Shown one piece after another: positions 8,469 to 36,693 of a DNA stretch of 37,061 nt. The stretch comes from Thermodesulfovibrionales bacterium. Its GTDB lineage: Bacteria; Nitrospirota; Thermodesulfovibrionia; Thermodesulfovibrionales; UBA9159. Location: positions 1-37,061 of the forward strand of contig DASRZP010000114.1 of assembly GCA_035686305.1 (NCBI GenBank), given 5' to 3'. Made by a program: the position numbers and the translations under genes. The notes under the pieces are model-generated. The model was not told the origin of the DNA, made no database searches, and was given only the letters and a program-made list of their open reading frames with translations. Position 1 is the first letter of the stretch. Each line of letters starts with the position of its first letter.

Positions 8469-8609
8469 ATGGGAACTTATACAACATTTCGCCCTCACAA
8501 GATAAAGAAAAAGAGAACTCATGGCTTCATGGAGAGGATGAGTACCCCGGGAGGCAGGAAGACCCTTCAGCGGAGGCGCGCAAAGGGACGCAAACGGTTA
8601 ACGGTTTAG
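8469..8609 (+). CDS. rpmH: 50S ribosomal protein L34
   Basis: This 46-residue basic protein reads [20 protein letters not shown] and continues with [14 protein letters not shown] and [12 protein letters not shown], an unmistakable L34. It is a component of the large ribosomal subunit that packs against 23S rRNA. GAGGAA lies about 7 nt before the ATG. As in most bacteria it heads the block that ends in yidD-yidC, but the usual second gene, rnpA, is not recognisable. The gene is shorter than typical ORF-finding cut-offs and easily missed. Confidence 0.97.
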
Positions 8610-8626
8610 CCCCCTTTCTCCTCCCC

Positions 8627-8803
8627 ATGGACAAGATCCCTGAAAACCCTTTCGAAGTCGATCGCCGCGGCTTTACGAGTGCTCATTGGCTTATTATTGC
8701 AGCGGCTATGAAGGGATCATGGGGAATCTTCCATGAAGTATCAGAAGCCCTTTCCCGTCGCTTTTTCCCATTCTCGGCTCGCCACGTCATAGGGAAACGA
8801 TGA
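8627..8803 (+). pseudogene. rnpA position: no intact RnpA, possible 58-aa ORF or remnant
   Basis: Between rpmH and yidD, where rnpA (about 110-120 codons) normally lies, only 190 nt are available. One frame is open from ATG 8627 to a TGA that overlaps the yidD ATG in an ATGA arrangement. It encodes 58 residues starting MDKIPENPFEVDRRGF and ending [10 protein letters not shown]. No ribosome-binding site precedes it. The RnpA signature around RNR..KR is absent in all three frames. A weak RnpA-like start (SLKTLSKS) occurs in another frame at about 8640-8665, and VDRRGF followed by a hydrophobic run lies in this one, which could mean a shifted and truncated relic. It could equally be non-coding sequence. 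No function is assigned. Confidence 0.3.
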
Positions 8804-9009
8804 CCAGGATACTCATATCCCTGATAAAGGTCTATCAGCACGTGATATCGCCCCTCTTCGCTCCGAGTTGCAGGTTTGCGCCGTCATGTTCCCTATATTC
8901 CATCGAAGCGCTGAAGAGATATGGCGCATGGAAAGGCACTTATCTCTCGATACGGAGGATCGTGAAGTGCAATCCCTTTCACCCTGGCGGATATGACCCG
9001 GTAAAATAA
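8800..9009 (+). CDS. yidD: membrane protein insertion efficiency factor YidD
   Basis: YidD is a small, amphipathic inner-membrane-associated protein that helps YidC-dependent insertion of membrane proteins. The 69 residues contain the family core: [23 protein letters not shown] with three conserved cysteines, followed by [16 protein letters not shown]. The ATG overlaps the preceding frame's stop (ATGA), and AGGGA lies about 5 nt upstream. yidC begins 3 nt after its stop, so the two are co-translated as in most bacteria. Confidence 0.95.
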
Positions 9010-9011
9010 AC

Positions 9012-10604
9012 ATGGACTCAATGGACAAAAGAACATTCCTTGCTATACTCCTGACACTCATCGTCTTGATGGGATACCAATTCCTATTCACAAAGCCCGA
9101 ACCCCGGCAGCCTCTGAAGACCGAAACTAGGACTGCACCCGAGACGGCAAAAGAAGGGCCCGCGCCTCTGGCACGTGCCTCAATCGCTCCGGTCGCTAGT
9201 GAGCCGGTCGAGGCAAGGGACATAAAGGTTGAGACAGACTTCTACATCGCTACGCTGACGACGAGAGGCGGAACCATGAAAGACTTTGAACTGAAGAAAT
9301 ATAAAGACCCTGATGGTAAAGGGGTCTCCCTGCTCAAGAAGCAAGGTCTCTACCCCCCTTTCGGTCTGGGGACGAATATCGATGACTTCAGCATCTCAAA
9401 CAAAAATTTCGTCGTATCCGGCTCCAATCTGAATCTGACGAGTGGTCAAAAGGGCTCGATTACGTTCGAGTATTCCTCCCCTCCTGTCTCGGTGAGAAGG
9501 GTTTATACTTTCTACGGAGACCATTACCGATTTGACCTCAAGGACGAGGTCTCGGGCATTCCCGAATACTGGCTCAGCCTCGGCTCTGATTTCGGGATCC
9601 ACGATCACGGAGCGTCGTCGGCTCCGCATATCGGGCCGGTCATCCTGAAAGACAATGACAGAATAGAACTGGACCCAAGAAAACTGGGCGAGCCAAAGAC
9701 ATACAAAGACGGACTCCATTGGATTGCGCAGGAAGACAAGTATTTCTTCGCTTCGATCGTGCCTTCAGGCCAGATCACCGAGGCAAAGGCATGGAAGTTG
9801 AGAGATTCCGCTACGGTTGCCTTCAAGGTTCCATCAGGCGCGAACAGTGTCATGATATACGCTGGGCCAAAGGAGTACGAAAGACTGAAGGAACTGCACG
9901 TCGGTCTCGAACATATTGTGGATTTTGGCTTCTTTTCGCTCCTGGCAAGACCTCTTTTCTGGATACTGAAGTTCTTCTACAAGTTCATCGGAAACTACGG
10001 ATGGGCCATAGTCCTTCTGACCATAATGGTGAGGATACCCTTTATCCCCCTCATCAATAAGGGCCAGAAGTCGATGAAGCGGCTCCAGGAACTCCAGCCG
10101 AGACTCAATGAAATGCGAGAAAAATACAAGAAGGATCCCCAAAGGATGCAGAAGGAGACGATGGAGCTCTACAAAAAATACAAGGTGAACCCTGTAGGAG
10201 GCTGCCTTCCGATGCTCCTCCAGATCCCGGTCTTTTTCGCGCTGTACAAGGTGCTCATGATATCGATCGAGTTGCGGGGCGCTCCCTTTATCTTCTGGAT
10301 AACCGACCTGTCAGGCCCTGACACGCTCTTTGGACATATCCCTTCATGGTTCCCCATGATCGGAGGCTTCGCGGTCGGTCCCCTTCCCCTCGCCATGGGC
10401 CTTACCATGGTTATCCAGCAGAAGATGACGCCCTCTTCCGCCGATCCGACGCAGGCCAAGATGATGATGCTCATGCCGATTGTCTTTACGTTCCTCTTCC
10501 TTAATTTTGCGTCAGGCCTCGTACTCTATTGGCTGGTGAATAATGTCTTTGGCATTGTTCAGCAATTTTACGTCAACAGGAAACCTTCCGGACAACAAAC
10601 CTGA
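9012..10604 (+). CDS. yidC: membrane protein insertase YidC
   Basis: YidC inserts and folds inner-membrane proteins, alone or with SecYEG. The 530-residue product has the Gram-negative layout: an N-terminal transmembrane helix (residues about 7-26), a large periplasmic beta-sandwich domain (about 60-330), then the conserved five-helix 60KD_IMP domain. The key intramembrane arginine lies in MVRIPFIPL. The coiled cytoplasmic C1 loop (QELQPRLNEMREKYKKDPQR) and the GGCLPMLLQIPVFFALYKVL helix are clear. The start could be ATG 9012 or the second ATG at 9021 (MDKRTF, nearer the family norm). The gene is tightly linked to yidD. The jag and mnmE genes that often follow are not here; the pil cluster comes next. 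Confidence 0.96.
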   Translation: MDSMDKRTFLAILLTLIVLMGYQFLFTKPEPRQPLKTETRTAPETAKEGPAPLARASIAPVASEPVEARDIKVETDFYIATLTTRGGTMKDFELKKYKDPDGKGVSLLKKQGLYPPFGLGTNIDDFSISNKNFVVSGSNLNLTSGQKGSITFEYSSPPVSVRRVYTFYGDHYRFDLKDEVSGIPEYWLSLGSDFGIHDHGASSAPHIGPVILKDNDRIELDPRKLGEPKTYKDGLHWIAQEDKYFFASIVPSGQITEAKAWKLRDSATVAFKVPSGANSVMIYAGPKEYERLKELHVGLEHIVDFGFFSLLARPLFWILKFFYKFIGNYGWAIVLLTIMVRIPFIPLINKGQKSMKRLQELQPRLNEMREKYKKDPQRMQKETMELYKKYKVNPVGGCLPMLLQIPVFFALYKVLMISIELRGAPFIFWITDLSGPDTLFGHIPSWFPMIGGFAVGPLPLAMGLTMVIQQKMTPSSADPTQAKMMMLMPIVFTFLFLNFASGLVLYWLVNNVFGIVQQFYVNRKPSGQQT

Positions 10605-36616: not shown

Positions 36617-36693
36617 TGGCAGGCCAGGAGGGATTTGAACCCCCACCCCTCGGATTTGGAGTCCGATGCTCTAGCCGTTAGAGCTACTGGCCT
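36617..36693 (-). tRNA. trnW: tRNA-Trp (anticodon CCA)
   Basis: The minus strand folds as a full cloverleaf: acceptor AGGCCAG/CTGGCCT (7 bp), D arm GCTC/GAGC, anticodon stem TCGGA/TCCGA with loop CTCCAAA (anticodon CCA, tryptophan), five-base variable loop and T arm GGGGG/CCCTC with TTCAAAT. A G discriminator and an encoded CCA end follow, 77 nt in all. It is transcribed within the tuf-rpmG-secE-nusG operon. Its first two bases are also the last two of the rpmG stop codon. Confidence 0.97.

Follow-up and report, generated by a model that had tools for sequence, protein, structure and literature searches.

RNase P is the textbook ribozyme, kept almost everywhere, and the gene for its protein, rnpA, usually lies between rpmH and yidD. 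In the stretch of DNA studied here (the window, 37,061 nucleotides from a Thermodesulfovibrionales bacterium of the phylum Nitrospirota), no more than 190 nt separate these two neighbours, which raises the question whether rnpA has been lost, and what would then cut the 5' ends of the tRNAs. As set out below, the RNA-based RNase P, that is rnpA together with rnpB, has very probably been lost, and the enzyme that cuts the tRNA 5' ends in its place is most likely one protein of 218 aa, the protein-only RNase P known as HARP. The features concerned are the following.

8469..8609, forward strand: rpmH, ribosomal protein L34, 46 aa (PF00468 70.7 bits, TIGR01030 64.9 bits), left border of the missing rnpA
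8610..8799, forward strand: 190-nt interval without RnpA, the position of rnpA in relatives with the RNA enzyme (RnpA profile and gap lengths)
8627..8803, forward strand: 58-codon open frame with an ATGA overlap on yidD (0 Pfam, 0 NCBIfam families)
8800..9009, forward strand: yidD, membrane protein insertion efficiency factor (PF01809 108.2 bits, TIGR00278 89.1 bits), right border
9012..10604, forward strand: 530-aa open frame 3' of yidD, which we take to be yidC, membrane insertase
36617..36693, reverse strand: tRNA-Trp gene with encoded 3' CCA (Rfam tRNA 65.6 bits; ARAGORN), presumed substrate of HARP
G000:C107:6712-7368, reverse strand: HARP, 218 aa, on a contig of 12.3 kb other than the window

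The empty rnpA site

As the original prediction stated, rpmH, yidD and yidC are intact and in the standard order. L34 and YidD are confirmed by Pfam and NCBIfam, and the open frame that follows them, which we presume to be yidC from reading the sequence rather than from a family scan, has its counterpart in 112 of 112 loci examined (yidC matches by tblastn, the window included). With the rpmH stop at 8609 and the yidD start at 8800, the gap is exactly 190 nt. None of its six translated frames carries an RNR..KR-like signature, again as predicted, and a profile built from relatives finds no RnpA in any sense frame. The best score is -1.4 bits, which 13-15% of shuffles equal or exceed, so that the weak RnpA-like pieces once read in two of the frames do not stand out from chance. 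The 58-codon frame with its ATGA overlap does exist, and its length is mildly unusual: when the gap is shuffled with dinucleotides preserved, 41 of 2000 shuffles reach it in the same frame. Pairwise short-word BLAST finds no counterpart to it in the gaps of six other genomes of the family, and it is probably neither a gene nor RnpA. We infer that the 190-nt gap is what remains at the site, without detectable coding function.

Neighbourhoods of yidD or rnpA were fetched for 111 genomes; counting the window too, rpmH and yidD were both located in 111 of 112. The gap measures 304-471 nt (median 330) in 42 genomes that have the RNA enzyme, and the RnpA frame can be read from it in 41 of these, whereas in 69 genomes without the RNA enzyme, the window included, it measures -19 to 190 nt (median 16). 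The lengths are bimodal, and the absence of rnpA from its usual place, with which the original prediction began, is far from chance. These sets represent 69 of the 73 genomes of the window's class that lack the RNA enzyme (left out are G289, at a contig start, and G267, G215 and G257, with no YidD match) and 42 of the 44 with RnpA or rnpB (left out are G249, whose stretch shows no rpmH, and G277, which has no YidD); second YidD matches of G176 and G132 were kept outside the set. No other gap among the 69 is as long as that of the window, and G298, which belongs to the window's family and lies outside that set, has one of 192 nt. Across the seven genomes of this family the gaps run from 32 to 192 nt, and pairwise short-word BLAST finds no similarity between them at E 0.01; for G295-G298, the data cover the rpmH-yidD gap only and not HARP, RnpA or rnpB. 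The proposed comparison of the interval in close relatives has revealed neither RnpA in the window's gap nor anything resembling that gap. In three genomes of family f2 (G004:C14, G104:C21, G255:C85), HARP and yidD share a contig, 4.4-5.1 kb apart and on opposite strands.

The profile used for detecting remnants was built from the frames in the 42 RNA-enzyme gaps, 41 of which were used (G291 was dropped for a wrong frame), and was run on the three sense frames. Compared with shuffles, no convincing RnpA remnant emerges from any of the 17 gaps that reach 70 nt. The gap of G259 scores 2.2 bits, which no more than 1.5% of its shuffles match; one such value can be expected by chance among 17 tests, and it was rejected as a sign of a general remnant. 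As a control of sensitivity, 63-residue fragments of RnpA from five held-out families were scored: unmutated, none fell below 15.9 bits (medians 21.5-87.3), and random replacement of 50% of the residues gave medians of 0.3-35.6 bits. Therefore, a fresh remnant would be visible, but a C-terminal one in an advanced state of decay could escape. It had been suggested that rnpA either decayed or moved. Within the assembly no move is seen, and decay holds only in the sense of a loss past detection, as no remnant stands out in the 190 nt.

RNase P of the genome and of the phylum

The draft genome of this bacterium comprises 3,231,682 bases in 147 contigs, and is 97.66% complete and 0.93% contaminated. 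The searches proposed for it at the outset (PF00825, rnpB models and a HARP profile) yielded no RnpA with PF00825, a model that matches in 10 of 14 control genomes, no type A rnpB with RF00010 (74 of 74 candidates scored; 11 of 14 control genomes positive) and no type B rnpB with RF00011 (51 of 51 candidates scored; 6 of 14 positive). The rnpB models were these two bacterial ones, with the archaeal RF00373 outside the search. Conversely, one HARP (PIN_5) was found, with E=4.4e-60 and without internal stops (4 of 14 control genomes positive), in line with the suggestion that HARP serves instead of rnpA. It scores 203.3 bits with PF08745 (cut-off 27) and 205.5 bits with TIGR03875 (cut-off 95.3), and matches seven distinct RNase P sequences in the PDB at E 9e-63 to 2e-41. 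Among named genomes, the best 80 of 187 relatives are 64-86% identical to it, and the titles among these 80 are mostly Nitrospirota, Nitrospirae or Nitrospiraceae, with several Thermodesulfovibrionales, Thermodesulfovibrionia and Thermodesulfovibrio and one Nitrospinota. PF20698 (PIN-TPR-GreABC) also weakly matches this protein.

For Aq880, the eLife 2021 study (PMC8266387) terms the aspartates D7, D138, D142 and D161 indispensable, and describes the basic residues R125 and R129 of the spike helix as needed for activity. The HARP residues D28, D159, D163 and D181, which correspond to these aspartates by motif and by a near-constant numbering offset (21, 21, 21, 20), are each identical in 75 of 75 aligned HARPs. 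R146 and R150 are likewise present in 75 of 75, their pairing with R125 and R129 coming from the numbering offset, with no alignment to Aq880. Both alignment and tree hold 75 of the 76 HARPs found, the one of G247 being cut by a contig end. Judged from its sequence, the HARP of this genome is intact, keeps the catalytic aspartates and is predicted to be the sole RNase P. As modelled for Aquifex, HARP would act as an oligomer whose spike helices grip the tRNA elbow and whose metal-dependent PIN active site hydrolyses the 5' leader. A HARP is expected to form at least a tetramer and to cut pre-tRNA at +1.

This state is shared by many relatives. In a sample of 295 genomes of the phylum, HARP is found above cut-off in 76, RnpA in 211 and rnpB in 217. 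All 76 HARP genomes belong to the window's class, and none of 178 genomes outside it has a HARP above cut-off. Within the class, 117 sampled genomes divide into 70 with HARP only, 6 with both enzymes (G190, G227, G249, G269, G287 and G291, each with HARP, RnpA and rnpB), 38 with the RNA enzyme only (among which G223 shows RnpA only and G277 rnpB only) and 3 with neither. As such, relatives do not all keep a full-length rnpA: the other 69 HARP-only genomes likewise show none. Four of the HARP-only genomes (G014, G052, G079 and G168) are listed as one contig, and assembly gaps therefore do not account for their missing RNA enzyme. It should be noted that rnpB in relatives was searched with stricter Infernal filters, scoring 4 candidates per genome, so that a very divergent RNA could escape; class genomes that do have rnpB reach E 4e-55 or better under those same filters.

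The three class genomes in which neither HARP nor RnpA nor rnpB was found are G146, G257 and G263. For these, and for G257 in particular, which is also without yidD, the double absence is likely due to incompleteness. The rpmH-yidD gap is short in G263 and G146, whose listed completeness is 95% and 100%, and either missing contigs or some further solution may lie behind what is seen there. Outside the class, weak PF08745 matches in 18 genomes were rejected as HARP, as they reach 20-23 bits against a cut-off of 27 and cover profile positions 157-202 only. They fall in families f27, f35 and f39, most of the open frames that contain them are 340-390 aa long, and they probably represent another PIN family.

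Probable repeated loss and competing explanations

To count losses we used a tree of L34, YidD and YidC for 112 genomes, made by a quick method with SH-aLRT support only, and assumed the RNA enzyme to be ancestral and never regained. On this basis the best tree implies 10 losses of the RNA enzyme, a number that falls to 8 when branches below 80 are collapsed and to 6 when branches below 95 are. Two losses lie inside f9, where the HARP-only G107 and G156, and separately G122, stand among both-enzyme genomes; the HARP tree likewise places G107 and G156 beside two both-enzyme genomes. From these sequence comparisons, the RNA enzyme looks to have been lost repeatedly within the class. We found no account of such repeated loss within Nitrospirota in the literature searched, in which few subscription papers were in reach.

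The HARP tree, which has no outside HARPs as root, shows 13 changes of family label against a minimum of 12. Near HARP lies a TPR gene that we call lapB-like from our own reading of its sequence, in 68 of 75 HARP loci and eleven families; its product carries a C-terminal zinc-ribbon-like tail (e.g. L001:2128-3456). That HARP tracks both the families and this neighbour suggests an old HARP that would have coexisted with the RNA enzyme in the class. The class ancestor may thus have carried HARP beside the lapB-like gene, perhaps with an Rnl3 ligase, in addition to the RNA enzyme. The latter would then have been lost independently in several families, with rnpA vanishing from between rpmH and yidD. 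When HARP is set against the RNA enzyme, 4 independent pairs are available on starred branches (7 on all), none of which change the same way, and these are too few for significance.

About 40 tRNA genes were found in the genome by search. Two neighbouring pairs lie 5 and 3 nt apart (ARAGORN; L188, L189), and their 5' ends must therefore come from cutting. CCA is encoded by all 18 tRNA genes examined (loci L187-L193 and the tRNA-Trp of the window), and the HARP of Hydrogenobacter has been reported to be about 10 times slower in vitro on a CCA-bearing precursor (PMC10652100); these two observations are in tension with HARP as the sole RNase P candidate. The 43 tRNAs in the fetched loci of relatives were sampled only through their chance proximity to HARP or yidD, and were kept out of the CCA comparison. 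In the HARP locus of seven f3 genomes (L113-L116, L121, L138, L148), a tRNA-Leu is found whose 3' end is given by ARAGORN as GCA instead of CCA; this may mark a site of integration or be an artefact of the ARAGORN call.

The Rnl3 ligase was found in the window's genome neither by PF18330 nor by TIGR01209 (each positive in 2 of 14 control genomes). It occurs in 18 of 295 genomes by PF18330 and in the same 18 among 80 by TIGR01209, all of them HARP-positive, and in 16 of the 18 all or part of the ligase gene is found no more than 1 kb from HARP on a shared contig. Among the 76 HARP genomes, these 18 comprise 5 of the 6 with both enzymes and 13 of the 70 with HARP only, so that neither model detects the ligase in 57 HARP-only genomes. 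The raw contrast gives a Fisher p=0.002 with kinship ignored. We did consider that ligase loss follows loss of the RNA enzyme, and rejected it: the contrast is gone after correction for relatedness, with 4 independent pairs only, which on average change the same way in 0.9, the opposite way in 0.4 and show no difference in 2.6.

Could rnpA and rnpB be present in the organism and merely absent from the draft, or could rnpA have been relocated? The 147 contigs and 97.7% completeness leave some room for this, and that HARP lies on a separate 12.3-kb contig of a draft genome counts against our own reading as well. However, rpmH, yidD and yidC are contiguous in the window, which means that the usual rnpA site is covered and empty, while in the 42 genomes measured with the RNA enzyme it holds 304-471 nt, with RnpA read in 41. 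Moreover, both genes would need to be missing together, a double absence shared by 69 other genomes, four of them single contigs, and we consider this explanation extremely improbable. The idea that rnpA persists in the gap as a decaying pseudogene, or that the gap encodes a short functional RnpA-like protein, could draw on the 58-codon frame, rarely matched by shuffles, and on the length of the gap, which exceeds that of the other 68 RNP-less gaps, though not that of G298, a genome of the same family outside this set. The RnpA profile nevertheless scores no better than shuffles where a fresh remnant would show, and the other six family genomes have nothing alike in gaps of 32-192 nt, which makes either version very unlikely.

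Alternatively, HARP might have another job, such as RNA repair or circularisation with a ligase, leaving tRNA 5' ends to an unknown enzyme or to leaderless transcription. Cooperation of HARP and ligase on C/D box RNAs has indeed been proposed, and four recombinant bacterial HARPs are noted to have failed on pre-tRNAs (PMC12153264); the encoded CCA of the 18 tRNA genes also fits poorly with the Hydrogenobacter report. Still, no ligase is detected in this genome, nor in 57 of the 70 with HARP only, and HARP must be retained there for something other than a ligase-linked job. Furthermore, HARP is found in 70 of 72 class genomes without the RNA enzyme (G257, without yidD, left out), and a tRNA gene that follows another after only 3 or 5 nt, as in two pairs here, could not be transcribed separately without a leader. 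As such, we give this explanation little credence. A HARP patchwork from repeated horizontal gains, instead of an ancestral HARP, is unlikely but deserves to be taken seriously: an ancestral HARP requires 7 to 11 losses where free parsimony needs 7 changes, and 7 of 75 HARP loci show no lapB-like neighbour (two in f5, one in f11, four in f3), although some of these loci are cut by contig ends. Against it stand the neighbour retained in the other 68 and a HARP tree within one label change of the minimum. Loss of the RNA enzyme would be repeated under any HARP history, unless rnpA came back to the same rpmH-yidD site. Replacement of the RNA enzyme by HARP, from an ancestor that would have carried both, is the reading that we retain.

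Comparison with known systems

The HARP described here is like those of the Aq880 type in its family models, its size, its four catalytic aspartates, probably its conserved arginines, and its position as the only candidate for RNase P in the genome. The gene order rpmH-yidD-yidC, with rnpA missing, is that of Aquifex (A. aeolicus and A. pyrophilus; PMC10941002). Unlike the Aquifex HARP, it has a Nitrospirota host and a lapB-like TPR neighbour, and no RNA ligase was found in its genome. That genome, at 3.2 Mb, is not condensed, and has relatives with both systems within the same taxonomic order. Thermodesulfovibrionales are named among HARP bearers by Seshadri and Gopalan (2025, PMC12153264), who report that 164 of 178 HARP-bearing bacterial genomes have the Rnl3 ligase. 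As in their HARP-Rnl3 pairs, the ligase is here always accompanied by HARP and mostly adjacent to it; unlike in their set, it occurs in only 18 of 76 HARP genomes. The 57 HARP-only genomes that show no such ligase bear on the 2025 proposal of cooperation between HARP and an RNA ligase.

We consider it reasonably probable that RNase P RNA has been displaced by protein across the class, through at least 6 losses (10 on the best tree) and with both-enzyme intermediates still living, and that HARP, mostly without the ligase and, at least in the genome of the window, acting on tRNAs whose genes encode CCA, has been adapted as a general RNase P. Sister lineages with only the RNA enzyme, only HARP, or both, would be natural replicates for asking what lets a protein replace a catalytic RNA.

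According to Daniels et al. (2019, PMC6380272), HARP is the only form of RNase P encoded in a few genera of Aquificae and Nitrospirae, and most bacterial genera with HARP carry both forms of RNase P. The genome studied here resembles the HARP-only Nitrospirae of that survey in phylum and state. Their survey, as its text describes it, relied on RnpA as a proxy, with no search for the RNA itself, whereas rnpB was included here, along with 295 genomes, gap lengths and a tree. The HARP-only state in Nitrospirae and, in Aquifex, the deletion of rnpA were already known in outline; their probable repeated occurrence by loss within one class is what is added here.
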